From Phocaeicola intestinalis (GTDB lineage: Bacteria > Bacteroidota > Bacteroidia > Bacteroidales > Bacteroidaceae), in the NCBI RefSeq assembly GCF_014837065.1, contig NZ_JACSPP010000014.1, positions 1 to 64,000 on the forward strand: DNA of 64,000 nucleotides. The letters are read 5' to 3'. The notes under the pieces were generated by a model, which was given only the letters and a program-made list of their open reading frames with translations, searched no databases and was not told the DNA's origin. Each line of letters opens with the position of its first letter. The first letter of the stretch is position 1. Shown here piece by piece: positions 6,691 through 63,811 of the stretch. The translations under genes were made by a program, and so were the position numbers.

Positions 6691-6696
6691 TAACTA

Positions 6697-6756
6697 AATA
6701 AAGAACCGGGAATAAAGAATAACGATTTGTTTATTCTTCATTCCCGGTTCTTTATT
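6697..6756. terminator. Bidirectional terminator between aspC and the GH36 gene
   Basis: Two 26-bp arms (6697-6722 and 6731-6756) are complementary with one mismatch and enclose an 8-nt loop. T runs on both strands follow. It separates the convergent aminotransferase and alpha-galactosidase genes. Confidence 0.85.
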
Positions 6757-6758
6757 TT

Positions 6759-8975: not shown

Positions 8976-9002
8976 GATGAGTTGTTTTAAATGATATCAA
9001 TG

Positions 9003-9046
9003 CAAAAGTAGGCATATTCCACCAATGCGAATGATACTGTTTTATC
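9003..9046 (-). promoter_or_regulatory. GH36 promoter with shared GATAAAACAGTAT operator
   Basis: On the minus strand GATAAAACAGTATCAT occupies 9046-9031 and the -7 element TACTTTTG occupies 9010-9003. The first G of the box is 36 nt from the first T of the -7 element, identical to the two copies before the GH5-SusC operon. The -33 position (TCAT) is poor, as expected for an activator-dependent promoter. Confidence 0.65.
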
Positions 9047-9123
9047 TTTTTCATTACAGATAGTGCGGATTATTACAGAAAATGCTATATATTTGCTGAA
9101 AGAAACCTTAAAACGAATTACGG

Positions 9124-9924
9124 ATGATGAAACAACTGCATTTCACCTTGCTCTTGCTTGCCGCTCTCCTGCTGGCAGGCTGCTCTACCGTCCCACTGAC
9201 CGGACGGAAGCAAATGCTTTTGGTATCGGATAGCGAAGTGCTGTCCTCCAGTCTTACCCAATACAACGACTATATCAAGTCGGCTAAGAAATCAGCCAAT
9301 GCCGCACAAACCGCCATGGTGGTACGGGTAGGGAAAAAGATAGCCTCCGCCACCGAAGCCTACCTGCGCGCGAACGGCATGGCATCGGAAATCCAGAACT
9401 TCGCGTGGGAATTCAATCTCATACAAGACCCGCAAGTGAACGCCTTCTGCATGCCGGGCGGCAAGATTGTAGTTTATGAAGGACTGATGAAGCTGGTCTC
9501 GTCCGATGACGAACTGGCGGTAGTGGTAGGACATGAAGTGGCACATGCCGTAGCAAAGCATAGCAATGAACGCCTGAGCCAACAAGTAATGGCGCAATAT
9601 GGTGCGAATATCCTCAATTCGCTGGTAAGCGACAAGAGTTCTGCGGTGCAAAAGGTTGCAGGCACGGTTTACGGCATCGGCGCACAATACGGCATGATGC
9701 TTCCCTTCTCGCGCAAACACGAATCGGAAGCAGACTATATGGGGCTGGTATTCATGACCATGGCTGGATACAATCCCGATGTAGCCGTCGGATTCTGGCA
9801 AAAGATGTCGGCAGGAAGCGGAGGGTCTGTACCCGAGTTTATGAGCACACACCCCAGCGATGCCACCCGTATCGCCGATATCCGGAAAGAACTGCCGGGC
9901 ATCAAGGCGAAATATGGCAAATGA
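9124..9924 (+). CDS. M48 family metalloprotease, lipoprotein
   Basis: A 266-residue zinc metalloprotease of the M48 (LoiP/YcaL/BepA-like) group. The N-terminus is a lipoprotein signal (LLLLAALLLAGC, lipid on the Cys of LAGC), so it should be anchored in a membrane facing the periplasm. The catalytic HEVAH motif lies at residues 137-141 and the third zinc ligand, Glu200, in ESEAD. Homologues degrade misfolded outer-membrane proteins. A -7 element TATATTTG at 9088-9095 stands 28 bp upstream. It sits inside the mannan region but need not take part in it. A hairpin-forming repeat fills the gap to the next gene. Confidence 0.9.
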   Translation: MMKQLHFTLLLLAALLLAGCSTVPLTGRKQMLLVSDSEVLSSSLTQYNDYIKSAKKSANAAQTAMVVRVGKKIASATEAYLRANGMASEIQNFAWEFNLIQDPQVNAFCMPGGKIVVYEGLMKLVSSDDELAVVVGHEVAHAVAKHSNERLSQQVMAQYGANILNSLVSDKSSAVQKVAGTVYGIGAQYGMMLPFSRKHESEADYMGLVFMTMAGYNPDVAVGFWQKMSAGSGGSVPEFMSTHPSDATRIADIRKELPGIKAKYGK

Positions 9925-9929
9925 TGAAC

Positions 9930-10042
9930 ATTTACTATTTGACAATTTACGATTTACGATTTACGATTTATCCCCTAATCCTATTTTGTACATTGCGAAT
10001 AGAAATGAAATAAATTGTAAATCGTAAATTGCTAAATTGTAA
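9930..10042. repeat. Word-like inverted repeat (TTTACGATT family)
   Basis: The left half repeats TTTACGATT three times after TTTACTATTTGACAA (9930-9970). The right half (10011-10042) reads TAAATTGTAAATCGTAAATT and runs up to the ATG of the next gene. It fills the gap from the M48 stop codon to the GH2 start codon. The same family recurs at 25849-25906 and 27375-27455. Confidence 0.7.
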
Positions 10043-12844: not shown

Positions 12845-12960
12845 CAATGTGCTAATGTGAGAATGTGCCAATGTGAGAATGTGCTAATGCGACAATGTGC
12901 TAATGTGACAATGTGCCAATGTGAGAATGTGCTAATGTGAGAATGCATTGGCTCATTAGC
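12830..12960. repeat. 16-bp tandem repeat with inverted tail (AATGTGCTAATGTGAG family)
   Basis: Seven units of AATGTG(C/T)(T/C)AATGTGA(C/G) follow each other without spacers from 12830 to 12941. Then comes a short reverse-complement tail (CATTGGCTCATTAGC). The repeat overlaps the last codons of the GH2 gene. The same family occurs at 62130-62246, where it overlaps the end of trpB. Confidence 0.85.
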
Positions 12961-12980
12961 AAATTAATAAATTTAAGACC

Positions 12981-13868
12981 ATGATAGTAAAAGACAAAAA
13001 CGTTATCCGCGAAATTACTCCTCTTTCGGAAAAAGACTGCTTCTACATTGCCGACCGAAGGAAAAGCGAATTCACTTATCCGATGCATTGCCACAAGGAA
13101 TTCGAACTGAACTTCGTAATCAATGCCCCTGGAGTACAACGCATCGTAGGCGACTCTGCAGAAATCATCGGCGAATACGACCTGGTACTCATCACCAGTC
13201 CAGATTTGGAGCATGTATGGGAACAACATGATTGCAAAAGCAAGGACGTTCGGGAAATCACCATCCAGTTCTCACCCCAATTCATGAAAACTTTACTCAG
13301 CACCAATCAATTCGACCGCGTCATGAAAATGTTCGACAAGGCACAAAACGGACTGAGTTTCCCCATGCAAGCCATTATGAAAGTCTATGCCCTGATAGAC
13401 GAACTGCCCGACACGAAAGGTTTCTATGCCGTGACTCGCTTCCTTACCCTTTTATATGAACTTTCCATGTTCACCGAAGAAGCACGCGTGCTATCCAGTT
13501 CTTCGTTCGCGAAAATCCAACAACACTCAGACAGTCGCCGAGTGCAGAAAGTACAAGACTATATCAACCAGCATTACAAAGAAGAAATCCGGCTGAACCA
13601 ACTGGCAGATATGGTCGGAATGACCGAAGTATCGTTCAGCCGCTTCTTTAAACTCCGCACGGGCAAAAATCTGTCCGATTACATCATTGACATCCGTCTG
13701 GGACATGCCACACGCATGCTGGTAGACTCCACCATGAGCATCGCAGAAATCTGTTACGAATCAGGATTCAACAACCTTTCCAATTTCAACCGCATCTTCA
13801 AAAAGAAAAAACTGGCATCGCCAAAAGATTTCCGAGACAGTTATAAGAAAAAACGGATCCTGATTTAG
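12981..13868 (+). CDS. AraC family transcriptional regulator
   Basis: A 295-residue regulator. The N-terminal half (about residues 20-110) is a cupin-like sensor domain with the usual HCHKEFELNFV sequence. The C-terminal 100 residues are the double helix-turn-helix of the AraC family (IRLNQLADMVGMTEVSFSRFFK; SIAEICYESGFNNLSNFNRIFKKK). There is no membrane segment, so it senses a cytosolic sugar. It lies between the two arms of the mannan locus. The best candidate binding site is the GATAAAAYAGTAT box found just after this gene (twice) and before the GH36 gene. This assignment is inferred from position. Confidence 0.93.
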   Translation: MIVKDKNVIREITPLSEKDCFYIADRRKSEFTYPMHCHKEFELNFVINAPGVQRIVGDSAEIIGEYDLVLITSPDLEHVWEQHDCKSKDVREITIQFSPQFMKTLLSTNQFDRVMKMFDKAQNGLSFPMQAIMKVYALIDELPDTKGFYAVTRFLTLLYELSMFTEEARVLSSSSFAKIQQHSDSRRVQKVQDYINQHYKEEIRLNQLADMVGMTEVSFSRFFKLRTGKNLSDYIIDIRLGHATRMLVDSTMSIAEICYESGFNNLSNFNRIFKKKKLASPKDFRDSYKKKRILI

Positions 13869-24257: not shown

Positions 24258-24345
24258 CCCATCCCCTCCAATCCTCCCCTAAGGGAAGATTTAAATACTT
24301 TTAAATATATAAAGTTAGGGAGGGGATTTAGGGGAGGCTCCATAA
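24258..24345. repeat. Word-like inverted repeat (CCCCTCC family)
   Basis: The left arm, CATCCCCTCCAATCCTCCCC and a few more bases, is matched by the right arm TTAGGGAGGGGATTTAGGGG. The pair fills most of the 108-bp gap between the GH26 stop codon and the phosphorylase start codon. Confidence 0.65.
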
Positions 24346-24358
24346 ACAACCATACACT

Positions 24359-25525
24359 ATGACCTCATTCGAAGAAAAAGTAAAAGACCTCATTGCCCGT
24401 CACGAGGCACTCATCACACGTAAAAACGAACCTGTAGCTGAAAGCAATGGCGTGTACACACGCTATAAATACCCCGTCTTGACCGCAGCGCATACCCCTA
24501 TCTTCTGGCGTTACGACCTTGACGAGAAAACCAATCCTTACCTGATGGAACGCATCGGCATGAACGCCGTGCTTAACTCGGGAGCGATTAAATGGAACGG
24601 GAAATACCTGCTCGTAGCCCGCGTGGAAGGTGCCGACCGCAAGTCGTTCTTCGCCGTAGCGGAAAGCCCCAACGGGGTAGACAACTTCCGCTTCTGGGAT
24701 TACCCTGTAACCATGCCCGATGACGTTATCCCCGCCACCAACATCTACGACATGCGACTCACGGCTCACGAAGACGGCTGGATATATGGTATCTTCTGTG
24801 CCGAACGCCATGACAACAATGCTCCGGCAGGCGACCTCTCTTCTGCTACAGCCACTGCAGGCATCGCCCGCACCAAAGACTTGAAAACATGGGAACGCCT
24901 GCCCGACCTGAAATCGAAGAGCCAGCAGCGTAACGTGGTGCTTCATCCCGAATTTGTAAACGGCAAATACGCCCTCTACACCCGTCCGCAAGACGGATTC
25001 ATCGATGCCGGAAGCGGCGGAGGAATCGGCTGGGCACTGATTGACGACATCACGCATGCCGAAGTGAAGGAAGAGAAAATCATCGACCTCCGCTACTACC
25101 ACACCATCAAGGAAGTGAAGAACGGCGAGGGTCCGCATCCTATCAAGACTCCGAAAGGCTGGCTGCATTTGGCTCACGGAGTACGCGGATGTGCTGCCGG
25201 GCTGCGCTACGTATTATATATGTATATGACTTCTTTGGAAGACCCGAGCGAACTTATCGCTTCGCCGGGCGGCTACTTCATGGCTCCCGAAGGTGAAGAA
25301 CGCATCGGCGATGTATCAAATGTATTGTTCACCAACGGCTGGATTGCCGATGACGACGGCACGGTGTACATCTATTATGCTTCTTCTGACACGCGGATGC
25401 ACGTTGCGGTATCTACCATCGACAAGTTGGTAGACTACTGCATGAACACGCCTCAAGACGGCTTGACTACTACCGCTTCGGTAGAAACGCTGAAACGGCT
25501 CATTGACAAGAACCTTGGGAAATGA
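24359..25525 (+). CDS. mgp: 4-O-beta-D-mannosyl-D-glucose phosphorylase (GH130)
   Basis: A 388-residue cytosolic enzyme without a signal peptide. It converts mannosyl-1,4-glucose plus phosphate to mannose 1-phosphate and glucose, the last step of the B. fragilis-type mannobiose pathway. It closely resembles the characterised B. fragilis enzyme along its length: [53 protein letters not shown], catalytic Asp131 in [40 protein letters not shown]. The substrate is produced by the 2-epimerase gene two positions downstream. GC content returns to the genomic level here. Confidence 0.95.
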
Positions 25526-25991
25526 ATAATTAAGAATGAGGAATGAAGAGTGGGGCATCTATTTTTCATTCCTCTTTCAGCTAAACAAATAAGTAAGTAT
25601 GCAAAATTAATGATATTATCAGAAACACAGATTTTCGCGGATTAGCGCAGATTATTGTAATTTATGCGAATCAGGAGTTAAACGTAGTTATGTTTCACAG
25701 GAGTTATCACTTCGTTCAGGAGTTAAAGGCCAATAGTCCTGCTTCTGAAAGCGGTGCAAGAGGTATTGGCATCTAACTCCCAGCCCGCACTGGCGGGCGA
25801 TAACTCCCTATAACTCTCTTTTAACTCCTGATTGGCATAATTTACGATTTGACAATTTACTATTTGAGCTTTAAATCGTACTTCGTAAATCGAAAAATAG
25901 TAAATTAAAAGAATCCGCGCTAATCCGCGTTAATCTGCGTTTCTGAGCCGACAGATTATATAAACTAATTCTCAACATCTACTTAATAACC
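25526..25991. repeat. Composite intergenic region of three nested palindromic repeat families
   Basis: After a small IR (GAATGAGGAATGAAGAG with TTTTTCATTCCTCTTTC), an outer pair 25620-25654 and 25912-25945 (CAGAAACACAGATTTTCGCG, complemented by CGCGTTAATCTGCGTTTCTG) encloses an AGGAGTTAAAGGCCAATAG ... TATTGGCATCTAACTCCC pair (about 25710-25840). It also encloses a TTTACGATT/AATCGTAAA pair (25849-25906). Each family also occurs alone elsewhere in the window. No gene is seen in these 466 bp. Confidence 0.8.
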
Positions 25992-27374
25992 ATGATTAAA
26001 CTCAAAGAAAAAATCGGATACGGGCTGGGCGACATGGCTTCCTCGATGTTCTGGAAGCTGTTCGGAGCCTACCTGATGATTTTCTATACCGATGTATTCG
26101 GACTTCCGGCAGCCATGGTGGGCACAATGTTCCTCGTCACCCGTGTGTGGGACTCGGTGTTCGACCCTGTCATCGGCATCATCGCCGACCGTACGTCGAG
26201 CCGTTGGGGGAAGTTCCGTCCCTACCTGCTCTTTCTTGCCGTCCCGTTCGGACTTATCGGCATACTGACTTTCTATACACCTCCTTTCGGCGAAGCGGGT
26301 AAATTAGTCTACGCCTACATCACCTATTCGCTGATGATGATGGTCTATTCGGGCATCAACGTGCCCTACGCTTCGCTCTTAGGCGTCATGAGCCCCAACC
26401 CGAAAGAACGCGGCACGCTTTCTACTTTCCGCATGATGTTCGCCTACATCGGCAGCTTCATCGCCCTGCTGCTGTTCATGCCCATGGCGAATGCTTTCAG
26501 CGGACACAGTTCGGACATTGCCGCCCAACAACATGGCTGGCTGATGGCTGTAATGGTCATTGCGGCAATGTGCGTCTTGCTTTTCTTCGGCTGCTTCTCG
26601 TGGACCAAAGAACGGGTAAAACCTATCAAGGAAGCGAAAAGCTCATTGAAGGATGACATACACGACCTCTTCCATAACCGCCCGTGGTGGATTCTGTTCG
26701 GAGCCGGCATCGCCTCGCTGGTGTTCAATTCCATCCGCGACGGAGCGGCGGTGTACTACTTCAAATATTACATCGTGGAATCAGACTTCCACGTCATCAC
26801 GCTTTTCGGGATGTCGTTCGTGCTGAGCGGACTCTTCCTCTCCGTAGGCCAGGCTGCCAATATCATCGGCGTAGTCTTGGCGGCTCCGGTCAGCAACAAG
26901 ATAGGCAAGAAAAACACCTTTGCCATCGCCATGCTCCTTGCCACCGCACTCAGCATCATCTTCTATTGGTTCGACCGCAGCGACCTGGTATGGATATTCA
27001 TCTTCCAATGCCTCATCAGCATCTGTGCCGGAAGCATCTTTCCGCTCCTGTGGTCGATGTATGCCGACTGTGCCGACTATTCGGAACTGCGCAGCGGAAA
27101 CCGCGCTACAGGACTTATCTTCAGTGCCTCGTCGATGAGCCAGAAGTTCGGCTGGGCAATCGGCACGGCAGTAACGGGCTGGCTGCTCTCCTACTTCGGA
27201 TTCCAAGCCAATGCCGAACAGAGTGCCGAGACCATCCACGGCATCAAACTGTTCCTCAGCTGGTTGCCCGGAGCTGCAGCATTCGTCTCGATGCTCTTCG
27301 TTATCGGCTATCCCTTGGGCGAACAGAAGATGAAGGAAATCATCGGCAAGCTGAACGAGAAACGGAAATCCTAA
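25992..27374 (+). CDS. GPH family sugar:cation symporter
   Basis: A 460-residue inner-membrane protein with 12 hydrophobic segments, of the glycoside-pentoside-hexuronide (MelB-like) branch of the major facilitator superfamily. Seen: KIGYGLGDMASSMFWKLFGAYLM, ARTSSRWGKFRPYLL-like loop (ADRTSSRWGKFRPYLL), and PISNKIGKKNTF-like loop (PVSNKIGKKNTF) in the second half. In B. fragilis the equivalent gene lies between the mannosylglucose phosphorylase and 2-epimerase genes and is thought to import mannobiose. Here the same order holds. Confidence 0.92.
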   Translation: MIKLKEKIGYGLGDMASSMFWKLFGAYLMIFYTDVFGLPAAMVGTMFLVTRVWDSVFDPVIGIIADRTSSRWGKFRPYLLFLAVPFGLIGILTFYTPPFGEAGKLVYAYITYSLMMMVYSGINVPYASLLGVMSPNPKERGTLSTFRMMFAYIGSFIALLLFMPMANAFSGHSSDIAAQQHGWLMAVMVIAAMCVLLFFGCFSWTKERVKPIKEAKSSLKDDIHDLFHNRPWWILFGAGIASLVFNSIRDGAAVYYFKYYIVESDFHVITLFGMSFVLSGLFLSVGQAANIIGVVLAAPVSNKIGKKNTFAIAMLLATALSIIFYWFDRSDLVWIFIFQCLISICAGSIFPLLWSMYADCADYSELRSGNRATGLIFSASSMSQKFGWAIGTAVTGWLLSYFGFQANAEQSAETIHGIKLFLSWLPGAAAFVSMLFVIGYPLGEQKMKEIIGKLNEKRKS

Positions 27375-27455
27375 CTTTATTTACGATTTGGCGATTTACA
27401 AGGTACTATTTATCGCCAAATCGTAAATAGTAAATAGTCAAATCGTAAATAATAA
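27375..27455. repeat. Word-like inverted repeat (TTTACGATT family)
   Basis: The left arm TTTACGATTTGGCGATTTAC and the right arm, which includes CGCCAAATCGTAAATAGTAA, are complementary. The 83-bp gap between the symporter stop and the epimerase start consists of little else. Confidence 0.75.
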
Positions 27456-27457
27456 AT

Positions 27458-28648
27458 ATGAATCAACTTATCAACCAGCTTCGGAACGAAATGCGCTCCG
27501 AGCTTGAAAACAACATCCTTCCGTTTTGGATGAACAAAATGGAAGATAACGAAGAAGGCGGCTTCTACGGACAAATCACCGGCGAAGACGAATTGAAACC
27601 TGAAGCATCGAAAGGCGCAATACTGAACGCACGCATCCTGTGGACGTTCTCGTCTGCCTACCGCCTGCTGAAGAAACCCGAATACTTAGAAACAGCTACC
27701 CGTGCCAAACGCTATCTGATAGACCGGTTCTACGACCCGCAGTACGGTGGCATTTACTGGGAACTGGATTACAAGGGCAACCCGCTTGATACGAAAAAAC
27801 AAATCTATGCCATCGGCTTCGCTATTTACGGACTGAGCGAATATGCCCGTGCTACAGGTGATGAAGAAGCCTTGGCGTATGCCCAACAATTATTTGATGT
27901 CATCGAACAACATAGCTTCGATTCCGAACAAAACGGATATGTGGAAGCATTGACCCGTGACTGGCAACCCATCGGGGACATGCGCCTGAGCGACAAGGAC
28001 GAGAACGAGAAGAAAACGATGAACACGCACCTGCACATCCTGGAACCTTACACCAACCTCTACCGCGTATGGAAGGACGAACAGCTGGAACGACAGCTAC
28101 GGAACCTGATTGAAGTATTCATCACCCGCATCCTCGACCCACAGACCGGACACCTCAACCTGTTCTTCGAAGAAGACTGGACCAACAAATACCGCATCTA
28201 TTCGTACGGTCACGACATCGAAGCCTCATGGCTTATCCACGAAGCGGCATTGGTACTGGGCGACCCGGCGTTGCTGAAACGGATAGAGCCCCTCATCATC
28301 CGGATAGCTCAAGCCGCCGATGAAGGACTAAATCCCGATGGAAGCATGATATACGAAAACTTCCTCGACAAACAAAAGATAGACCGTGAACTGCACTGGT
28401 GGGTACAGGCGGAAAACGTAGTAGGACACATCAACCTCTACCAACACTTCGGCAACACGGAAGCTCTCGACACCGCCGTCCGCTGCTGGGAGTTCATCAA
28501 GACGAAACTGATAGACCGCGAACACGGCGAATGGCACTGGAGCCTCCTGCCCGACGGCACCGTAAACCGCCGCGATGACAAGGCTGGATTCTGGAAATGT
28601 CCTTACCACAACGGCCGCATGTGCATGGAGGTCATCGAACGCTTCTGA
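27458..28648 (+). CDS. Cellobiose/mannobiose 2-epimerase (AGE family)
   Basis: A 396-residue cytosolic (alpha/alpha)6-barrel enzyme of the N-acylglucosamine 2-epimerase superfamily. It should convert beta-1,4-mannobiose to mannosyl-glucose (and cellobiose to glucosyl-mannose), giving the substrate of the adjacent phosphorylase. The three histidine-containing motifs of cellobiose 2-epimerases are present: MNTHLHILEPYTNLY, YGHDIEASWL and WKCPYHNGRMCMEV. Length (about 390-410) fits. The function is supported strongly by the mgp-symporter-epimerase gene order. Confidence 0.93.
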   Translation: MNQLINQLRNEMRSELENNILPFWMNKMEDNEEGGFYGQITGEDELKPEASKGAILNARILWTFSSAYRLLKKPEYLETATRAKRYLIDRFYDPQYGGIYWELDYKGNPLDTKKQIYAIGFAIYGLSEYARATGDEEALAYAQQLFDVIEQHSFDSEQNGYVEALTRDWQPIGDMRLSDKDENEKKTMNTHLHILEPYTNLYRVWKDEQLERQLRNLIEVFITRILDPQTGHLNLFFEEDWTNKYRIYSYGHDIEASWLIHEAALVLGDPALLKRIEPLIIRIAQAADEGLNPDGSMIYENFLDKQKIDRELHWWVQAENVVGHINLYQHFGNTEALDTAVRCWEFIKTKLIDREHGEWHWSLLPDGTVNRRDDKAGFWKCPYHNGRMCMEVIERF

Positions 28649-28663
28649 CTTTTTCACCACAGA

Positions 28664-28800
28664 TTACACAGATTTTCAATTTAGATTTTAAAGTTTATAC
28701 AAACAGTCAGTTCAGAAACGCAGATTAACACAGATTTTCGCAGATTATCATTTTAATTATCTGATAAATCTGCGTTAATCCGCGAAAATCTGCGTTTCTA
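28664..28800. repeat. Word-like inverted repeat (CAGATTTTCGC family)
   Basis: The arm at 28712-28749 (CAGAAACGCAGATTAACACA and on) is the complement of 28762-28800 (ending CGCGAAAATCTGCGTTTCTA). Extra CACAGATT words precede the hairpin. This is the same family as the outer layer at 25620-25945. It lies between the epimerase gene and an esterase remnant. Confidence 0.8.
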
Positions 28801-28831
28801 ATAATTCAACAAAAACCATGAAACGATTAAG

Positions 28832-29485
28832 TGTCCTGTTGTCGTATGGTTTCACGGAGGCGGACTGACACAAGGCAACAAGTCTTTCCCTTGGAAACTG
28901 AAAGAAAAGGGCATGGTGCTTGTCGCCGTCAACTACCGTTTGCTTCCCAAAGTGGAAATCAACGAATGCCTTGATGATGCAGCGGCAGCCGTGGCATGGG
29001 TATTCCTCGAAATCGGGAAATACGGAGGAGACAAACGGAAGATTTTCGTATCGGGACACTCGGCAGGAGGCTATCTGACCGCCATGATAGGCTTGGATAA
29101 GAAATGGCTCGCCAACTATCAGACCGATGCCAATGAGATAGCAGGACTCATCCCGTTCAGCGGACAGATGATCAGCCATTTCGCCTATCGGGACATGAAA
29201 GGCATCGGAAACCTGCAACCGACCATTGATGAGTATGCCCCACTCTTTCATGTCCGGAAAGACGCTCCTCCCTTGGTATTGATTACAGGAGACCGCAACA
29301 TCGAGCTTTTCGGACGATACGAAGAGAACGCCTACATGTGGCGGATGATGAAACTGACCGGACATGCCGAAACCTACCTCTACGAGATAGACGGACACGG
29401 GCACGGCTCTATGGCAGAACCGGCTTACCACATCTTAGAGCAACACATCCGGAAAATTTTAGGGAAACCGGTGGATAACAACTGA
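28832..29485 (+). pseudogene. 5'-truncated alpha/beta-hydrolase (esterase) remnant
   Basis: From 28832 the frame reads CPVVVWFHGGGLTQGN and continues into an open frame whose first ATG is at 28913. It keeps the oxyanion HGGG motif, nucleophile motif GHSAGG, an ITGDRN acid segment and the DGHGHGSM histidine. Members of this esterase family start with a signal peptide and about 40-60 more residues. Those are missing: an ATGAAACGATTA start at 28818 is out of frame with the rest, as if a deletion fused the first codons to the middle of the gene. Translation from 28913 would lack the oxyanion hole, so activity is doubtful. Confidence 0.7.
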
Positions 29486-29522
29486 CCAAGAATACCCCTA
29501 CCACAAATCCCTATAAATAGGT

Positions 29523-29554
29523 ATTGCCGGATTATTTCAAGCCTTGTATTTTTG
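29523..29554 (+). promoter_or_regulatory. Promoter of the TetR-family gene
   Basis: ATTG at 29523-29526 (-33-like) and TATTTTTG at 29547-29554 (-7) are 20 bp apart. The ATG is 25 bp downstream. Confidence 0.6.
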
Positions 29555-29579
29555 CAGAAAGAAAAAAACAGAAAACATC

Positions 29580-30191
29580 ATGCAAGTGCTGAAAGAAGAC
29601 ATACGCGACCGTATATTGGCTATTGCCAGGCAGCAATTCGCGCAGAATGGATATTCCAAAACTTCCATGCGTGAAATAGCCGGACTGGCAGGAGTTGGGG
29701 TCGGAAACATCTACAACTATTTTGCAAACAAAGACGAGCTGTTCCGTGAAGTGGTCCGTCCGGTCTTGTATGCCTTGGAAGCCATGTTGCAGGAGCATCA
29801 CGGCATACGGGGCGAGGATATTATGATGATGCGGTCGGAAAAGTATCTGAAGTCCTGCATCGATGAATATGTTTCGCTTATTAACACGCACCGCGGGCTG
29901 ATGGAAATTCTGTTGTTCCGCGCACAAGGCTCTTCATTGGAACATTTCCGCGAGAACTACACCGACCGTTCTACGGAACTGGTCAAGGCATGGTTCACGT
30001 CCATGCAGCAGAAGCATCCCGAAATCAATACGGCAGTGTCCGATTTTATCATCCACCTGCATACGGTATGGATGTTCACCCTGTTCGAGGAACTGCTGAT
30101 GCATTCGGTTCCCCAACAGGAAATGGAAACCATCTTGCACGACTATATTCTTTTTGAAATTCAAGGCTGGAGGGCAATCATCCAAATATGA
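29580..30191 (+). CDS. TetR/AcrR family transcriptional regulator
   Basis: A 203-residue repressor-type protein. The N-terminal DNA-binding domain is clear: IRDRILAIARQQFAQNGYSKTSMREIAGLAGVGVGNIYNYFANKDELF. The C-terminal helical domain is the ligand/dimer part. ATG at 29580 is chosen because the upstream in-frame region overlaps the promoter. A strong terminator follows at 30241-30278, so the next genes have their own promoter, which this protein may control. A candidate operator lies at 30326-30351. Confidence 0.9.
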   Translation: MQVLKEDIRDRILAIARQQFAQNGYSKTSMREIAGLAGVGVGNIYNYFANKDELFREVVRPVLYALEAMLQEHHGIRGEDIMMMRSEKYLKSCIDEYVSLINTHRGLMEILLFRAQGSSLEHFRENYTDRSTELVKAWFTSMQQKHPEINTAVSDFIIHLHTVWMFTLFEELLMHSVPQQEMETILHDYILFEIQGWRAIIQI

Positions 30192-30240
30192 GATACAGGC
30201 AACGTACATACGAACATTCAACCGTATTGGAACGGTTGGC

Positions 30241-30278
30241 AAGGAGGAAATCTTCACGGAGGTTTCCTCCTTTTTTTA
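30241..30278 (+). terminator. Rho-independent terminator after the TetR gene
   Basis: The stem AAGGAGGAAA / TTTCCTCCTT has a 12-nt loop and a T run (30263-30277). Confidence 0.88.
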
Positions 30279-30325
30279 TGAACATTTCTGAATATCGTTC
30301 GCTTTTGCGCACTTTTCTCACATTC

Positions 30326-30351
30326 AGCAAAGCAAGTAAACTCGCTTTGCT
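30326..30351. promoter_or_regulatory. Candidate TetR operator before the methyltransferase-ABC genes
   Basis: AGCAAAGC (30326-30333) and GCTTTGCT (30344-30351) form a perfect 8-bp inverted repeat with a 10-bp spacer, about 40 bp upstream of the methyltransferase ATG. The size suits a TetR dimer. Assignment is by position only. Confidence 0.35.
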
Positions 30352-30390
30352 CTCACTCAATCGAAACGTTCACTATTAAATTGCAATATA

Positions 30391-31212
30391 ATGAAACAGA
30401 AACACGAATTTAAGAGCATTGTGGCGGAGACGTTGCTCATTCCGCTATACATGAGAGCGAAAGAAAGCCGCCGTGTCAATCCTATTCTGGATGACAAGGC
30501 AGCGGAACGGTTGGCAGACAGCTTGGAATACGATTATTCCCAATTCGATGGGGCAAAGCTGAGCGAAGTGGGCTGCGTGGTGCGCGGCTGGTATTTCGAC
30601 CGTGCCGTAAAACGGTTTATCGATACGCATCCCCGTCCGGTAGTCGTAAATGTAGGGTGCGGATTGGATACCCGTTTCCAGCGTATCGGCAACCCAAAAA
30701 CTGTTTTTTATGACTTGGACTTGCCGGAAGTCATGGCACTACGTCGGGAATTGATACCCGAACAGACAGGTAATGTTTATATCGCAGCTTCCTTACTGGA
30801 AACCGACTGGATGGACGAGCTACGTCGGAAACATCCCGATGCGGAATTTATTTTCATTGTGGAAGGTGTGCTGATGTATTTTTACGAGAAGCAGGTAAAA
30901 AGTTTCCTGCATCACGTGGCAAGCCGTTTCGGAGGTGGAGAGTTGTGGTTTGACGTATGTGGCACCATGATGAGCCGGCATGGTGTAAAGCCCGATTCAC
31001 TCCGCCATCATGAGGCGCAAATCCGTTCGGGATTGAGCGATGGACATCTGGTGGAACAATGGGAACCGGCTTTGCAACTCATCGAACAAGCTAACTACAT
31101 GAAGTTTTTCCGCTCACGCTGGGGATTCTTCTTCGGACAAGTATTAGGGCGCATTCCTTGGCTATGTTATAAATTCAGTTCATTACTCGGATATAAAATC
31201 CTATCAAAATAA
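30391..31212 (+). CDS. LCMT-like SAM-dependent methyltransferase
   Basis: A 273-residue methyltransferase of the leucine-carboxymethyltransferase (LCM / PpmA-type) family. Seen: RRVNPILDDKAAERL and RGWYFDRAVKRFI near the N-terminus, the SAM-binding VVVNVGCGLDTRFQRI near residue 85, YDLDLPEVMALRREL and FIVEGVLMYF. Related bacterial enzymes methylate carboxyl or hydroxyl groups of small natural products or polyketides; the substrate here is unknown. It stands 6 bp upstream of the first ABC gene and is probably co-transcribed with both. Confidence 0.85.
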   Translation: MKQKHEFKSIVAETLLIPLYMRAKESRRVNPILDDKAAERLADSLEYDYSQFDGAKLSEVGCVVRGWYFDRAVKRFIDTHPRPVVVNVGCGLDTRFQRIGNPKTVFYDLDLPEVMALRRELIPEQTGNVYIAASLLETDWMDELRRKHPDAEFIFIVEGVLMYFYEKQVKSFLHHVASRFGGGELWFDVCGTMMSRHGVKPDSLRHHEAQIRSGLSDGHLVEQWEPALQLIEQANYMKFFRSRWGFFFGQVLGRIPWLCYKFSSLLGYKILSK

Positions 31213-31218
31213 TATACA

Positions 31219-33021
31219 ATGAATCAAACAAAAAAGAAAGAAGGTCTGTCCCGGCTGTTCGAGATAGCGGGACAGAAGAAAGGGCTGCTCATCATGGCAG
31301 GCGTGTTGTCTGCCGGCAGCGCGGTGTGTATGCTCGTGCCCTATTGGGCGGTTTATGAAGTTTTAAAAGAATTGCTGACACATGGAGGAAATCCCGCCGC
31401 TTCGGACGGAGCCAGCATGATACGCTGGGGATGGATAGCGTTTGGGGGACTTGTCGGCGGACTGGTATTGCTGTATGCCGCCTTGATGTCTTCCCACATT
31501 GCGGCTTTCCGCATACTCTATGGATTGCGTGTCCGCCTGTCCGAACACATCGGCAGGCTTCCATTAGGGTATCTGAACAACACGTCCACCGGAGCCATCA
31601 AGAAAACGATGGACCAGAACATCGAAAAGATAGAGGGGTTCATCGCCCATACCATTCCGGACTTAGTGAACGTGGTAGCCACGGTAGCGGTGATGCTTGC
31701 CATCTTCTTTTCGCTGGATGCGTGGCTGACGGCCGTATGCCTGACGGTCGTAGTGGTCAGTCTGTTTCTTCAATTCTCCAATTTCATGGGCAAAAGGGCA
31801 AGGGAGTTTATGGGCATCTACTACGATGCGCAGGAAAAGATGAGCGCGTCTGCCGTGCAATATGTGCGGGGGATGCCCGTGGTCAAGATATTCGGGCAAA
31901 GTGTCCGTTCGTTCCGTCAGTTCAATGCCGAAATCCAGGCATATAAGACCTTTGCCTTGAAGTGTTGCGACACCTACCAGAACGGGATGATTGCCTTTAC
32001 GGTTCTGCTCAATTCGATGGTGACGTTCATTCTCCCCATGGGCATCCTGCTGATGCAGGCCAGTCCGCAATCCTTGTCGCTGGCGGTGGTATGGCTGTTT
32101 TTCATCATCATGGGTCCGGGTATGGCTTCTCCCGTCTATAAACTGACATTCTTGGGAGGCAACACGCGCGACATCGATGAGGGTGTAAAACGCATCGACC
32201 GCATCTTGGGAAAAAAGCCTGTACCGGAAGCGGAGCACCCGCAGGTGCCTACATCCTATGATGTGGAGTTCCGCCATGTATCATTCTCCTACGAAAACAC
32301 GGAACAGGGCACGCGGACGGAAGCCTTGCGCGATGTCAGCTTCACGGCACCGCAAGGAGAGATAACCGCTCTTGTCGGTCCGTCGGGAAGCGGTAAGTCT
32401 ACGATAGCCAATCTGATTCCCCGCTTTTGGGATGTGGAACAGGGAGAGATACGCATAGGCGGCGTGGACATCCGCCAGATAGCCACGGAGAAGCTGATGG
32501 ACATGGTGTCTTTCGTATTTCAGGACACGTTCCTGTTTTATGACACGCTCTATGAGAACATTGCCGTCGGCTCTCCCACAGCCACGCAGGAAAAAGTGAT
32601 AGCCGCAGCCAAGGCTGCCCAATGCCATGACTTCATCGAACGGTTGCCGCAGGGATACGACACGCGGATAGGCGACAAAGGTGTGTATCTCTCCGGAGGC
32701 GAAGCGCAACGGATATGTGTGGCACGTGCTATCCTAAAGAATGCCCCGATACTGGTGCTGGACGAAGCCACGGCTTTCGCCGACCCGGAAAACGAGCATA
32801 AAATGCAAATGGCTTTGCAGTCGCTGATAAAGGACAAGACGGTCATCGTGATTGCCCACCGCCTCTCTTCCATCATCTCGGCACATCAGATTGTCGTCAT
32901 GAAAGAGGGACGGATCGCACAGTGCGGAAAACATGAAGTCTTGTCCGTAACAGAAGGTGTATATAAAAAGATGTGGGATGCCTATACAAGTGCTTACCAC
33001 TGGACGTTGAACAAAAATTGA
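31219..33021 (+). CDS. ABC half-transporter (membrane + ATPase), YbtP/IrtA-like
   Basis: A 600-residue protein with an N-terminal six-helix exporter-type membrane domain and a C-terminal ATPase. Walker A GPSGSGKST, signature LSGGEAQR, Walker B with catalytic Glu (LVLDEATAFADPENE) and the H-loop IAHRLSS are all present. The ATAFADPENE variant in place of ATASLDPE is what I associate with YbtP/IrtA-type half-transporters, which have an exporter fold but import siderophores. This is inference from a motif. It forms a pair with the next gene. Confidence 0.88.
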   Translation: MNQTKKKEGLSRLFEIAGQKKGLLIMAGVLSAGSAVCMLVPYWAVYEVLKELLTHGGNPAASDGASMIRWGWIAFGGLVGGLVLLYAALMSSHIAAFRILYGLRVRLSEHIGRLPLGYLNNTSTGAIKKTMDQNIEKIEGFIAHTIPDLVNVVATVAVMLAIFFSLDAWLTAVCLTVVVVSLFLQFSNFMGKRAREFMGIYYDAQEKMSASAVQYVRGMPVVKIFGQSVRSFRQFNAEIQAYKTFALKCCDTYQNGMIAFTVLLNSMVTFILPMGILLMQASPQSLSLAVVWLFFIIMGPGMASPVYKLTFLGGNTRDIDEGVKRIDRILGKKPVPEAEHPQVPTSYDVEFRHVSFSYENTEQGTRTEALRDVSFTAPQGEITALVGPSGSGKSTIANLIPRFWDVEQGEIRIGGVDIRQIATEKLMDMVSFVFQDTFLFYDTLYENIAVGSPTATQEKVIAAAKAAQCHDFIERLPQGYDTRIGDKGVYLSGGEAQRICVARAILKNAPILVLDEATAFADPENEHKMQMALQSLIKDKTVIVIAHRLSSIISAHQIVVMKEGRIAQCGKHEVLSVTEGVYKKMWDAYTSAYHWTLNKN

Positions 33022-33036
33022 AAAGGAGAACAAGAT

Positions 33037-34788
33037 ATGAACGCAATCAAAAACATTACCATCGGACATACCGAACGGCTTTACAAGCCAGTCGGATACA
33101 CCATGCTTGCCAACTTGGTCAATATCGTGCCGTTCTGCCTCTCTATTGAAGCGGTACGCATCATCTTCAGTGCTTTTGACGGGAGCGGACAGCCGCTTGA
33201 CACCACCCGCCTTTGGTGGATATTCGGCATGATGGCTGTTTATATGCTGGTCATGGCTTTGGCGGAACGGGCATCCTATCGTGCCAATTTCCGAGGAGCC
33301 TACGAAATGAGCGCATCGGGACGCTTATCGCTGGCTGAACATCTACGGAAACTTTCGCTGGGATTCCTGTCCAGACGCGACCCCGGCGATTTGTCTTCCA
33401 TGCTTATTACGGACTTCATGATGGCGGAAACCGGTATCTCGCACCACTTGCCCCAACTGATGGGTGCCGTGGTCATGCCCGTACTGGCTTTTGCTTCGCT
33501 GGTCTGGATAGACTGGAGGATGGCAGTCAGCATGTTTGCCGCGCTTCCGCTTGCCATGCTTGTCCTATGGGCAAGCACTGGCGTACAAAGGAAACTGAGC
33601 GGCAAGCAGATTCAAGCCAAAATAGATGCCGGAAACCGGTTGGAAGAATACCTGCAAGGCATCCGGGTGATGAAAGCCTACAACCTGCTGGGCGACCGTT
33701 TCGTCCGGTTGCGTGATGCCTTTGCCCAGCTTCGCCGTGCCTGCATCCGCCAGGAAGCTTTGTTAGGTCCGTTCGTTTTGCTAAGTATCACAGTGGTTCG
33801 TGCCGGACTGACGATGATGGTTCTGTGCGGAACTTATCTCCTGTTAGGGGGCAAGCTTTCCATACTCGTATTCGTACTGTTCCTCGTGGTCGGTTCCCGT
33901 GTGTTCGATCCGCTGACTTCCGCCCTGACCAATTTCACCGAGTTCCGTTATTTCTCCATTGCCGGAGGACGCATCCTTTCACTGATGAACGAGCCGGAAA
34001 TGAAAGGGGAACGGCAATCTCCGGTGGCTGGCGACATCCGCTTTGAACATGTATCGTTCGCTTATCAAGATAAAGAAGTGTTGCACGATGTAACCGTTAC
34101 TCTTCCCAATAATTCACTGACAGCTCTTGTCGGTCCTTCGGGAAGCGGGAAAAGTACAGTAATGAAGCTTTGTGCCCGTTTCTACGACCCACAGAAAGGG
34201 CGTATCTTCTTCAACGATGTTCCGATGGATGAAACAGATCCCGAAAGCCTGATGAGCCACATATCCATGGTATTTCAGGATGTTTATCTGTTCCAGGACA
34301 CCCTGCGCAACAACATCCGTTTCGGCAAAACCGATGCGACGGAGGAGGAAATCATCGCCGCAGCCAAGAAAGCCTGTTGCCACGACTTCATCATGCGCTT
34401 GCCTCAAGGCTATGACACGATGGTAGGCGAAGGAGGCTGCACCCTGTCGGGCGGTGAGAAGCAGCGCATATCCATAGCCCGTGCCATTCTGAAAGACGCG
34501 CCAATCATTCTGCTGGATGAAGCGACCGCCTCCCTCGATCCCGAAAACGAAGTGGAAGTGCAGAAAGCCATCGACACGCTCATCAAAGGACGTACCGTGA
34601 TAGCCATTGCCCACCGACTTAAAACCATTCAGAACGCCGACCGGATTATTGTCTTGGACAACGGAGAAATCAGGGAAGAAGGTACGCACGATGAACTTAT
34701 CCGGAAGGAAGGGCTTTACGCACATTTGTGGAATATCCAAGAAAACAGTTCCGGTTGGAAACTTGCCAATCAAATTGAAAACCATTGA
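33037..34788 (+). CDS. ABC half-transporter (membrane + ATPase), YbtQ/IrtB-like partner
   Basis: A 583-residue half-transporter, 15 bp after the previous one, likely its heterodimer partner. The membrane domain is followed by an ATPase with Walker A GPSGSGKST, signature LSGGEKQR, Walker B LLDEATASLDPENE and H-loop IAHRLKT. Both ATPase sites look complete, unlike many heterodimeric exporters with one degenerate site. With the methyltransferase and TetR gene it may form a small-molecule (metallophore or toxic compound) transport unit. Confidence 0.88.
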   Translation: MNAIKNITIGHTERLYKPVGYTMLANLVNIVPFCLSIEAVRIIFSAFDGSGQPLDTTRLWWIFGMMAVYMLVMALAERASYRANFRGAYEMSASGRLSLAEHLRKLSLGFLSRRDPGDLSSMLITDFMMAETGISHHLPQLMGAVVMPVLAFASLVWIDWRMAVSMFAALPLAMLVLWASTGVQRKLSGKQIQAKIDAGNRLEEYLQGIRVMKAYNLLGDRFVRLRDAFAQLRRACIRQEALLGPFVLLSITVVRAGLTMMVLCGTYLLLGGKLSILVFVLFLVVGSRVFDPLTSALTNFTEFRYFSIAGGRILSLMNEPEMKGERQSPVAGDIRFEHVSFAYQDKEVLHDVTVTLPNNSLTALVGPSGSGKSTVMKLCARFYDPQKGRIFFNDVPMDETDPESLMSHISMVFQDVYLFQDTLRNNIRFGKTDATEEEIIAAAKKACCHDFIMRLPQGYDTMVGEGGCTLSGGEKQRISIARAILKDAPIILLDEATASLDPENEVEVQKAIDTLIKGRTVIAIAHRLKTIQNADRIIVLDNGEIREEGTHDELIRKEGLYAHLWNIQENSSGWKLANQIENH

Positions 34789-34813
34789 TATACAAATTTG
34801 TACATTTCAAAAG

Positions 34814-34940
34814 AACACAGATATTGCAAAGGCACAGACGGACATACAGGTTATTTTATTTGGCTGATTGCGACATTCATATAAATTTATTTTCCTGTGC
34901 TTCTCTGTGCCATCTGTACCATCTGTACCATCTGTGTTCC
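34814..34940. repeat. Word-like inverted repeat (CACAGAT / ATCTGTG family)
   Basis: The left half (34814-34850) holds AACACAGAT, GGCACAGACGG and ACATACAGG. The right half (34894-34940) holds CCTGTGC, CTCTGTGCC and three CATCTGT words ending CATCTGTGTTCC. The two halves are approximate reverse complements around an AT-rich loop, between the ABC pair and the cyuA-like gene. Confidence 0.6.
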
Positions 34941-35049
34941 GTACCGGCATAGCTGTATCGAAAAGATTTTCCCTTCCAGCCTGCACATTCTCTGCAAAAA
35001 AAATGTACTTTTGCAACACGAATCAAAAACAAGACAAACAGACAAACAA

Positions 35050-36357
35050 ATGGAGAGCATCATCAGCAAATCTGAAAGAGAGCAAATCATCGCTCTGATG
35101 AAAAGAGAAGTGGTTCCTGCCATCGGCTGTACCGAGCCTATTGCAGTAGCACTCTGCACAGCAAAAGCTACTGAGGCTTTGGGCTGTACACCCGAACATA
35201 TCAACGTCTATCTGAGTGCAAACATCCTGAAAAACGCGATGGGCGTAGGCATACCGGGTACGGGAATGATAGGTCTTCCCATCGCCATTGCATTGGGCGC
35301 ACTCATCGGCAAGTCGGAATACGGACTGGAAGTCTTAAAAGACTGCACACCCGAAGTTGTAGAAAAAGGAAAGGAAATGATAGCACGTCCCCAGTGCATC
35401 AACATCGCCTTAAAAGACGACATCGAGGAAAAACTATACATTGAAGTGACCTGTACAAACGGGAACAATGTAGCGACTGCCATCATCAGCGGCGGACATA
35501 CCAACTTTGTCTACTTATGCCGTAATGGAGAAGTGCAGCTCGACAAACGTACCGGCACCACCTCGGCCGAAGACGAAGAAACGGTCGACCTCACTTTACG
35601 CAAGGTGTTTGATTTCGCCACCACTGCCCCCATCGATGAAATACGCTTCATCCTCGAAGCCAAAAATCTGAACAAGGCTGCCGCCGAACAATCACTCAAA
35701 GGCTGTTATGGACACGGATTGGGACGTATGTTGTGCACTAACAAGAATGAAGAAAAGATTATGGGAAACAATACCTTCACCCACATCCTCTCGTACACCT
35801 CTGCCGCATGCGATGCCCGTATGGCAGGTGCAATGATACCCGTAATGAGTAATTCAGGAAGCGGAAACCAAGGCATATCTGCCACCCTTCCCGTAGTCAT
35901 CTTTGCCGAAGACACCCACGCCACCGAAGAACAGCTCATTCGTGCGCTGACGCTAAGCCACCTCACCGCTATTTACATCAAACAGAGCCTGGGCAAGCTT
36001 TCGGCGCTCTGCGGATGTGTAGTGGCAGCTACCGGAAGCAGCTGCGGCATCACCTACCTGATGGGAGGCAGCTACGCACAGGTGATGTACGCCGTGCAGA
36101 ATATGATTGCCACCCTCACCGGAATGATATGCGACGGGGCAAAGCCCAGCTGTGCCCTGAAAGTAACCAGCGGCGTATCTACTGCCGTGATGTCTGCCAT
36201 TATGGCTATGGACCAGAAGTGCGTCACTGCCGTAGAGGGCATCATCGAAGAGAACGTGAACCGGAGCATCCGCAACCTGACCCTCATCGGTTCGAAAGGC
36301 ATGAACGAGACCGACAAGATGGTGCTCGACATCATGACCCACAAACATTGTGATTAA
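35050..36357 (+). CDS. L-cysteine desulfidase-like protein (UPF0597/CyuA family)
   Basis: A cytosolic protein of 435 residues from ATG 35050. This start is preferred to the in-frame 34897 because a -7 element TACTTTTG lies at 35006-35013, inside the longer reading frame. It belongs to the UPF0597 / serine dehydratase alpha-like family, members of which (CyuA/YhaM, archaeal CdsB) split L-cysteine to pyruvate, ammonia and sulfide using an iron-sulfur cluster. Seen: PAIGCTEPIAVAL at the start, NAMGVGIPGTGMIGLPIA, NSGSGNQGISATLPV, and Cys residues near LCGCVVAATGSSCG and GMICDGAKPSC that fit cluster binding. Confidence 0.88.
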   Translation: MESIISKSEREQIIALMKREVVPAIGCTEPIAVALCTAKATEALGCTPEHINVYLSANILKNAMGVGIPGTGMIGLPIAIALGALIGKSEYGLEVLKDCTPEVVEKGKEMIARPQCINIALKDDIEEKLYIEVTCTNGNNVATAIISGGHTNFVYLCRNGEVQLDKRTGTTSAEDEETVDLTLRKVFDFATTAPIDEIRFILEAKNLNKAAAEQSLKGCYGHGLGRMLCTNKNEEKIMGNNTFTHILSYTSAACDARMAGAMIPVMSNSGSGNQGISATLPVVIFAEDTHATEEQLIRALTLSHLTAIYIKQSLGKLSALCGCVVAATGSSCGITYLMGGSYAQVMYAVQNMIATLTGMICDGAKPSCALKVTSGVSTAVMSAIMAMDQKCVTAVEGIIEENVNRSIRNLTLIGSKGMNETDKMVLDIMTHKHCD

Positions 36358-36359
36358 TC

Positions 36360-36460
36360 AGGTACTAGGAACTAGTTGACTAGGTACTAGGTTTTCAGAT
36401 ACCAAACATGCTCAAAGGTATTTAAAACCTAGTCAACTAGTACCTGGTCAACTAGTCAAC
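36360..36460. repeat. Word-like inverted repeat (ACTAGTTGACTAGGTACTAG family)
   Basis: GGTACTAGGAACTAGTTGAC and following words on the left are mirrored by AACCTAGTCAACTAGTACCT and following words on the right. The repeat fills the 109-bp gap between the stop codon at 36357 and the ATG at 36467. Confidence 0.8.
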
Positions 36461-36466
36461 TAAAAA

Positions 36467-37105
36467 ATGACACATCCGGCAGACTACATACAGCGGCTTA
36501 TCAGCGAAGGCGAACACGTGCATCAGGACTTCAAGTTCGAAATCTCCGATGCCCGGAAGATAGCCAAAAGCATCTCCGCCTTTGCCAATACCGAAGGAGG
36601 ACGCCTGCTGGTAGGAGTAAAAGACAACGGAAAGATAGCCGGCGTGCGCTCCGAAGAAGAAATCTACATGATAGAAGCCGCCGCCCAACGTTATTGCACG
36701 CCGCCCGTCGACCTGCATACCTATATATATAAGGTAGAAGGAAAAGATGTGCTGGAAGTGGTAATCGATGAAAGCCCGCGAAAACCCGTCTACGCCCTCG
36801 ATGCCGAAGAACGGCGGTGGGCATACGTCCGCATCAAGGACGAAAACATTCTGGCAAGCCCTATCCACCTGAACATCTGGCAGCACAACCGGCACGAGGA
36901 AAAGGTCATCATCGCCTACACCCAACGCGAACAACAAGTACTGAACCTGCTGGCACAACATCCTTGCCTCACCCTCAACCAATGCCAACGCCTCACCCGG
37001 ATGAACCGCAAGCTAATCACCAACCTCCTTGCCGACTTTATCCGCTTCGGACTGGTAGAGCAGGTATTCCATGAACACACGTTCTATTTCCGGTTGAAAG
37101 AGTAA
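36467..37105 (+). CDS. AlbA_2 (Schlafen-like) domain protein with C-terminal winged helix
   Basis: A 212-residue protein. The N-terminal half is an AlbA_2 putative DNA-binding / ATP-interacting domain: HQDFKFEISDARKIAKSISAFANTEGGRLLVGVKDNGKIAGV is the diagnostic stretch. The C-terminal 70 residues look like a winged helix (REQQVLNLLAQHPCLTLNQCQRLTRMNRKLITNLLADFIRFGLVEQV). Such proteins are common in Bacteroidetes and presumed regulatory; the target is unknown. Confidence 0.85.
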   Translation: MTHPADYIQRLISEGEHVHQDFKFEISDARKIAKSISAFANTEGGRLLVGVKDNGKIAGVRSEEEIYMIEAAAQRYCTPPVDLHTYIYKVEGKDVLEVVIDESPRKPVYALDAEERRWAYVRIKDENILASPIHLNIWQHNRHEEKVIIAYTQREQQVLNLLAQHPCLTLNQCQRLTRMNRKLITNLLADFIRFGLVEQVFHEHTFYFRLKE

Positions 37106-37511
37106 TGCCGTTATACTTCTCGCGGCATTAATTGGTGCATTTTATCGCTTGTCACCTTAAATCCACATGACTGCCTTGCTTGTAAGATTATTAAGAAGCT
37201 GTTTTGAATTTCTCCAAAAAGTTTTTCTTGGCTTGATGTATCCGTTTTCGTGTGTGCTTTGGGCGATTTTTTGGTCCTTTCCGCTCCTGTTCTTCGTCAG
37301 ATAGCCCGCTATCTTCCTCATCACAGAAGCGGAAATGCCTCAAAAACTCATCCCAAATCATCGCACGATAAATTCAAAACAGCTTCTAATCTTCATGCCG
37401 AAAGATTATTAATCTTCACGCTGTAAGATTAATAATCTTACAAACAATGCTGCTTATGGCGGAGAAACCAAAGCTTGCTTGTCATGGCGGATATTCACTA
37501 CTATTAATTAT
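37106..37511. other. Intergenic region with a MITE in a palindromic array
   Basis: After a short hairpin (AATGCCG / CGGCATT near 37103-37130) comes the array TGTAAGATTATTAA, interrupted by the 192-bp MITE, and then AAAGATTATTAATCTTC and GTAAGATTAATAATCTTAC at 37401-37440. The region separates the convergent AlbA_2 and LptD-like genes. No gene is seen. Confidence 0.7.
37195..37386. mobile_element. MITE-like element, long form (192 bp)
   Basis: The terminal inverted repeats are perfect: GAAGCTGTTTTGAATTT (37195-37211) and its complement (37370-37386). TAA flanks both sides (37192-37194, 37387-37389) as a target duplication, matching the TNA preference of IS5-group elements. The ends match those of the transposase-bearing element at 57610-58508 (16 of 17 positions), so that enzyme or a relative may have moved it. 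There is no coding capacity. Confidence 0.75.
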
Positions 37512-46150: not shown

Positions 46151-46219
46151 ACAGGAGTTAAAAGACAATAGTTCTGTTAGGATTTCCATTAGTAAAAGTA
46201 TTGGTTTCTAACTCCCTGA
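46151..46219. repeat. Inverted repeat (AGGAGTTAAA...CAATA family)
   Basis: ACAGGAGTTAAAAGACAATA (46151-46170) pairs imperfectly with TATTGGTTTCTAACTCCCTG (46199-46218). It lies 25 bp after the viaA-like frame. Same family as 48672-48746 and the middle layer at 25710-25840. Confidence 0.7.
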
Positions 46220-48671: not shown

Positions 48672-48746
48672 TTTAAAGGAGTTAGAGGGAGTTAAATGCC
48701 AATAGCACAGAAGTATTGGCTTTTAACTCCCTCTAACTCCTTTAAA
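48672..48746. terminator. Long hairpin between rny and the patatin gene
   Basis: A 33-nt arm (48672-48704) including AGGAGTTAGAGGGAGTTAAA is almost perfectly complementary to 48714-48746, with a 9-nt loop. It separates convergent genes and could stop transcription from both sides. It belongs to the AGGAGTTAAA...CAATA repeat family. Confidence 0.7.
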
Positions 48747-63677: not shown

Positions 63678-63811
63678 GTTCTTTAGTTTTTAAGTTTTTG
63701 AGTTTTTGAGTTTGTAAGTTATTATCTTACACCAACTCAAGAACTAAAAAACTTAAGAACTAAAAAACTCAAGCAAGAACTTAAAAACTCAAAAACTTAA
63801 GAACTCAAAAA
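63678..63811. repeat. Word-like inverted repeat (TTTTTGAGTTTTTAAG family)
   Basis: A T-rich left half (AGTTTTTAAGTTTTTGAGTT and on) is the complement of an A-rich right half (ACTCAAGAACTAAAAAACTT and on). The repeat fills the 134-bp gap between the trpE stop and the trpG start. Confidence 0.8.

Follow-up and report, generated by a model that had tools for sequence, protein, structure and literature searches.

The window, as we call the whole 64,000-nucleotide stretch analysed here, is part of contig C55 of its source genome, G000, a draft assembly of 4.07 Mb in 162 contigs. At 25526-25991 it contains a gap between a GH130 gene and the gene for an MFS sugar transporter, the latter being followed by a GlcNAc 2-epimerase-like gene. 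Two relatives recur below: Phocaeicola salanitronis (G017; chromosome-level, 4,242,803 bp), which is the nearest of 40 relatives searched when judged by the MFS protein (99% identical), and Bacteroides sp. An322 (G001). The GH130-MFS gap is 30-50 bp long in 18 of the 29 loci in which both neighbours were placed. It measures 466 bp in the window, 449 bp in An322 (L048 2552-3000), where it holds a tandem array with a unit of about 37 bp (GGGATTCCGTCCCCACAGCGTGGGC..), and 359 bp in G017, where a CACAGAG palindrome is split by another element. Near relatives have thus come to carry different sequence in this gap.

Layers of the GH130-MFS gap

The initial annotation described this gap as a set of nested inverted repeats. 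The nesting is real, with a best inverted-arm score of 28 where 200 dinucleotide shuffles reach 13 at most, although the outermost layer had been missed. RNA folding of 25591-25985 gives -146.9 kcal/mol (z -11.3), a value equalled by none of 100 shuffles. No match to an intrinsic terminator was found in the gap, promoter-like sites occur there at chance level only, and a search of the whole window with Rfam returned two tRNAs and nothing else.

Repeats are named here by letters of our own (O, R, C, B, E, F, H, I and K). The outermost layer, O, which carries all the inner ones, occupies 25590-25985 (396 bp including both copies of a TA target) and runs from TAAGTAAGTATGC to CATCTACTTA. Its copies elsewhere, an IS630-like right end and the TA target mark it as a miniature inverted-repeat element (MITE), that is, a short element without a transposase. 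The left TA (25590-25591) was placed by comparison with G017 and of locus L017 with L236, and the right TA (25984-25985) by flank comparison. Inside O lies the R layer, whose left arm (25619-25658, plus strand) is built of 10-bp units around CRCAGATT and whose right arm occupies 25907-25946 (minus strand). Next comes AATTT at 25659-25663, at once the left edge of the C layer and the left copy of a target duplication; the right copy stands at 25839-25843. Between the two copies is B, an IS982-like MITE of 175 bp (25664-25838, plus strand) with ends ATGCGAATCAGGAGTTAAA and TTTAACTCCTGATTGGCAT. The C layer, with a TTTACGATT-type core (25839-25906, plus strand), is severed by B from its first 5 bp.

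Three arm pairs correspond to these layers. The 46-nt pair 25619-25664/25901-25946 (87% complementary) is the R layer plus a bit of its neighbours, 25654-25682/25820-25848 (90% complementary) comprises the ends of B plus neighbours, and 25854-25865/25895-25906 is C. B is enclosed within the outer arms, as had been proposed; rather than lying symmetrically inside C, it sits between the R left arm and C, 5 bp inside the left edge of the latter. Just outside O, the arm search also found a small separate hairpin, GAATGAGGAATGAA..TTCATTCCTC, at 25534-25578 (arms 25534-25547/25565-25578).

Evidence for transposition of O and B

Used as a query against G000, the gap returned at least 81 matching pieces (40 of the 222 first-look candidates were scored). 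One set consists of the inner part only (query ~161-349), at unrelated places; the other consists of the outer parts only (query ~91-165 and ~339-486), which adjoin each other elsewhere. Inner pieces standing alone and outer pieces adjoining are together the signature of insertion.

Aligned copies of B have the ends ATGCSAATCAGGAGTTAAA in common, often with five bases repeated on both sides. Both ends were found for 45 insertions (19 in G000 and 26 in G017), a tally that omits copies with a lost end. An exact 5-bp duplication flanks 25 of the 45 and is inexact in the other 20, with at least four of the five bases agreeing in 34; when right flanks were re-dealt in 10,000 trials, exact duplications averaged 2.1 and never exceeded 9. 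Precise empty sites are present in G017 at two places (L009/L225, TATTT; L012/L231, TAGTT). At a third (L010/L245, AAATA) the G017 site lacks B, yet also differs by about 15 bases of repeat. Five of the 19 G000 sites are apparently common to the two genomes: two match in both flanks (L011/L271, L035/L274), two by one flank plus alignment (L022/L232, L030/L235) and one by a 1-kb alignment (L044/L210), one-sided flank matches at L003, L016 and L047 having been left out.

The window's own copy gives the same picture. Once B and one AATTT are removed, the remaining O is 86-94% identical to nine copies of O that contain R and C without B; these represent seven sites, as L015/L239 and L024/L233 are counterpart pairs. 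AATTT is kept at the junction in eight of the nine, the ninth (L027) having TATTT. Judged by these duplications and empty sites, B has transposed as a unit, with a 5-bp target duplication. TTTACGATT-type motifs flank 11 of the 45 B copies, a raw count in which two copies look like one duplicated region.

A number of B-related sequences were considered and set aside, or are recorded here as observations. Solo B ends are, by eye, decayed or interrupted B copies. A further element, F, lies inside B at L232 in G017 and is absent from B at L022. At L204 (~1023-2964) a gene of unknown role stands between two halves of B, and both halves terminate in F-like sequence. An322 has a solo B end (L324 ~2243) immediately upstream of the start of a gene whose product, from its motif, looks like a DUF368 membrane protein.

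A candidate parent of B was sought with its 19-bp end in 61 genomes of the genus, 18 of which gave matches. In three of these 18, neither of them G000 nor G017, ends ATGCGAATCAG[GTC]AGTTG bound a total of five full insertion sequences, 1,075-1,081 bp long (L328, L343 and L351 in G269; L342 in G281; L337 in G023). The ends of B (ATGCGAATCAGGAGTT..) and those of the full elements (ATGCGAATCAGTAGTT..) have terminal inverted repeats in common, and four of the five full elements, L351 being the exception, are flanked by exact 5-bp duplications, the same length as those of B. The 302-residue transposase of L351 scores 102.7 bits against the NCBIfam IS982 model (NF033520), under the cut-off of 130, and the parent family is therefore named only IS982-like; the match of this protein to Pfam DDE_Tnp_1 is weak (21.5 bits, under the cut-off of 23). 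From its common ends and equal duplication length, then, B appears firmly placed as a MITE of IS982-like type. A search by ends with up to two mismatches found no full-length parent in G000 or G017, and hence no present-day helper for B there. Regions between distant B-type ends on contigs C66 and C95 of G000 proved to hold ordinary genes, and G017 1504170-1507292 holds a B interrupted by a small element together with an element whose genes look IS66-like by eye; none of these is the parent of B.

The ends of O (TAAGTAAGTATGCAAAA...CAACATCTACTTA) enclose the CAGATTTTCGCGGATTA arms that the initial annotation had taken as outermost. Among the 24 O loci examined (15 in G000, 9 in G017), both ends are present in 20, the exceptions being L028, L259, L261 and L228. 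The 20 complete copies represent 16 sites in the two genomes, four pairs being counterparts (L015/L239, L024/L233, L260/L266, L026/L247), and they form a ladder of sizes. The shortest measure 90 bp (L262) and 97 bp (L263). Copies of 151-161 bp contain R only (L046, L260, L265-L268) and those of 217-225 bp contain R and C (L015, L017, L020, L024, L025, L027, L233, L239, L269). One of 282 bp (L026) has element H in addition to R and C, one of 298 bp (L247) has element I in the R loop, and the window's, at 396 bp, has B. The predicted forms with fewer layers thus exist.

The target of O was examined at two sites. L017 and its O-less counterpart L236 in G017 fit a TA target, with some flanking base differences; so does the window (...ACAAATA / TAATAACCATG) when set against G017 (...TAAATAATAACCATG), again with further base differences in the flanks. 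In the search for a parent of O, 25 of 399 genomes of the family gave matches. Complete elements at L290, L295, L296 and L299 start with TAAGTAGATGTT and end with TACTTA; the two frames of L290 match HTH_32 and DDE_3 as well as an IS630 model, whose cut-off the second frame exceeds. The right end of O closely matches this IS630-family end, the left end being no more than similar. These comparisons support the assignment of O as a MITE of IS630 type, inserted at a duplicated TA. In G013 (L278) there is a solo O-type end only. Contigs C82 and C151 of G000 start with an identical 76 nt, an end piece of an IS630-type element, that closes with the right terminus of O; used as a query, these 76 nt retrieved no full element in G000.

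Taken together, these data make it very probable that the nest arose by two transposition events, O first and B later. In the first step, an O in which an R palindrome already surrounded a C core would have inserted at a TA in the GH130-MFS gap; in the second, B would have entered the AATTT that forms the left edge of this core, duplicating those five bases. Transposases of matching IS630 and IS982-like elements may have moved O and B in trans. As O with R, and O with R and C, exist without B, both in the size ladder and at empty sites, R and C would have come inside O, and B landed subsequently; in keeping with this order, only the window's copy among the eight complete R-and-C copies of O in G000 has B. 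R and C appear, on this evidence, to have reached the locus pre-assembled within O. Transposition is inferred here from the termini, the duplicated targets, the empty sites and the forms with fewer layers; insertion does not account for the construction of R and C or for the changes in their cores.

Two other origins for the nest have been weighed against this order of events. Slippage with hairpin-templated repair might have made the whole nest in place, given that an R arm has about three units of 10 bp and that differences between matching copies come in whole units. Such local growth is incompatible with the discrete sizes of O, with exact duplications and with close copies at unrelated sites; empty sites refute it for O and B, leaving the arms of R and C as the only parts it might have shaped, and as an origin of the nest we consider it highly improbable. 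Joining of repeats during assembly deserves mention as well, given that G000 is a draft in which some of the 162 contigs end in repeats. A chimeric join would not yield an exact AATTT duplication with O continuing on both sides, and the chromosome-level G017 has the same kinds of nest; an artefact is hardly credible.

The two-step account bears on the proposal that the repeat families were inserted as units into one another. Insertion as a unit is borne out for B by 5-bp duplications and empty sites and is supported for O by the TA and the empty counterparts, and is not borne out for R and C at this locus. Target duplications were seen at the boundaries of B (AATTT) and O (TA), and not at those of R and C. 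Likewise, the statement that the repeats are not just products of slippage is upheld for O and B and not for R and C, whose matching arms differ by whole 10-bp units.

The R and C palindromes

R and C are abundant. With three mismatches allowed, G000 contains 200 matches to the R pattern and G017 contains 278 (reversed control 0), and matches to the C pattern number 45 and 38 (reversed control 1 and 0); R arms have mostly two or three 10-bp units per side. No target duplication was seen around R or C at the matching sites compared, where no clean pair of empty and filled sites turned up for R alone. Nor did the loci examined include any R copy with C at a TA within a perfect palindromic R loop.

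Intergenic palindromes in high copy number are typical of REPIN/RAYT systems, in which REP-like sequences are spread as hairpins by a RAYT (Y1) transposase with no target duplication. R and C, as intergenic hairpins without duplications at the sites compared, resemble these in kind, and G017 has one Y1 gene. Y1_Tnp is absent, however, from both G000 and An322, despite the abundance of R in G000, and O and B differ from REPINs in duplicating their targets. A RAYT origin was therefore rejected for G000 and is very unlikely in general.

Single copies in the window had been listed for each family. The one at 28664-28800 includes a genuine R palindrome with a short loop at 28714-28799 (it scores 15, and 100 shuffles reach no more than 13); its G017 copy holds a C-type core. 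Those at 9930-10042 and 27375-27455 proved to be TTTACGATT-type palindromes as described (20 against 10 and 18 against 11, 100 shuffles each), the latter a single C-type palindrome at 27378-27429 whose place is taken in G017 by a CACCACAGATTACACAGATTTT palindrome. The two assigned to the B family fared less well. The sequence at 48672-48746 is a GGAGTTA palindrome (30 against 10, 100 shuffles) without the end sequence of B, while that at 46151-46219, scored as a palindrome without gaps, stays below its shuffles (8 against 9) and by eye looks like a decayed piece of B. The near-perfect GGAGTTA palindrome possibly represents a separate unit-armed family related to the interior of B. The gene that follows the R palindrome (window 28749-28850) seemingly misses about 160 bp near its start when compared with G017.

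Between genomes, palindromes at matching sites often differ. Both R arms are kept around a different core at window 28700 versus L129 in G017 and at L029/L229. By eye, different palindromes occupy one and the same site at window 9929, 24246, 25530 and 27378, and matching R arms differ by whole 10-bp units at L048 versus L049 and at L038 versus L224. The MFS-epimerase gap, which is 4-28 bp long in 23 of 27 loci (some genomes counted twice), extends to 102-150 bp at L129 in G017, L048 and L130 in An322, and L049; four relatives, the window included, have four different palindromes there. In a census of window 6765-13868 and 24340-37104 against G017, five palindromes were comparable, of which three differ in family, one differs in core and one is the same. 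Three G017 palindromes (23722, 24737 and 48186 in coordinates of the joined stretch) lack a scored window partner. Contig C107 and G017 are syntenic over about 10 kb only, and matching gaps were few and found partly because they differ, so that this sample is small and partly selected.

One way to explain such differences is that copies trade the cores of R and C, as distinct from O and B, not through transposition but through recombination or template switching in the arms they share. The kept arms, the different families at one site, the four families of the MFS-epimerase gap and the census all fit this, and we regard it as quite possible, though as somewhat short of an even chance. The sites are few, and independent insertions into a favoured gap would look alike. 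The partnerless G017 palindromes also count against it, as do L037/L230, where just the left R arm is in common, and L026/L247, whose difference includes ordinary MITE insertions. One of these is element I in the R loop at L247, with TA on both sides; the other is element H (ends TTTRAATATCCGCA), present in O at L026 (600-700) with an 8-bp TAGTTTAT duplication and absent at L247.

A broader scheme, which we put forward as doubtful and for discussion, is that intergenic palindromes with 7-10-bp units (families CAGATTA, TTTACGATT, CACAGAG, CACCACAGATTACACAG and others) may keep their place while differing in family or core from one sister species to the next. A new core would be copied in by way of the shared arms, without a transposase, and O-like shells of IS630 type would then spread whichever core they held. 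An IS630-like shell, I (AGTAAAACAAAATTGG..CTGATTGACT), was observed at L247 and at L355 4737-4957, the G017 counterpart of window 13869, and encloses a different palindrome at each, of the TCATCCTGAACG type at one and of the CACAGAG type at the other.

Relation to known elements

Cardinium is a member of the Bacteroidota, and Porphyromonas gingivalis is an oral relative from the same order as Phocaeicola. The Cardinium element MITECca01 is an IS982-derived MITE of about 240 bp with the ends of an IS982-family element and an intact parent present (PMC9769881). It resembles B in its IS982-type ends and differs in that a full-length parent of B was not found in G000 or G017; the word 'nested' is absent from the text of that paper. 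BrickBuilt of P. gingivalis is a MITE that holds a minisatellite, with duplications of varying length (PMC4596501); repeated units inside a MITE are common to both systems, the inner repeats here being palindromic arms. In Streptococcus pneumoniae, RUP, BOX and SPRITE are short intergenic repeats, and the ends of RUP resemble IS630-Spn1 (PMC3049150). The likeness extends to intergenic location and to the IS630-like ends of RUP and O, whereas the present case concerns other sequences in another phylum, includes an IS982-like family and can be resolved into layers through empty sites and the ladder of sizes. Against the published background (PMC10969869, PMC9769881), the nest belongs to a known kind, of which it is a well-resolved case. 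Our literature search found no description of these two MITE families, nor of five of the repeat sequences.

The value of the nest is that it naturally records the order of insertions, intermediate forms of it being present in two genomes. For this Phocaeicola group it also yields two MITE families, each with a candidate parent. If replacement of palindromes in place is confirmed, their turnover would point to a means of renewing intergenic hairpins without a transposase.

Some other repeats were also recorded. Element E, which has ends GAAGCTGTTTTGAATTT, measures about 190 bp and includes a short open frame, occurs in several copies, at window 37194-37387, in the L129 gap and at L206 ~735-935, with 3-bp duplications seen by eye in L206 (TTA) and L129 (TAA). 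Further palindromes of other families lie in the window at 36371-36456, 58602-58666, 63677-63769 and 6696-6757 (GTTGACTAGGTAC, TATATTCCATGGG, AGTTTTTAAG, AATAAAGAACCGGG).
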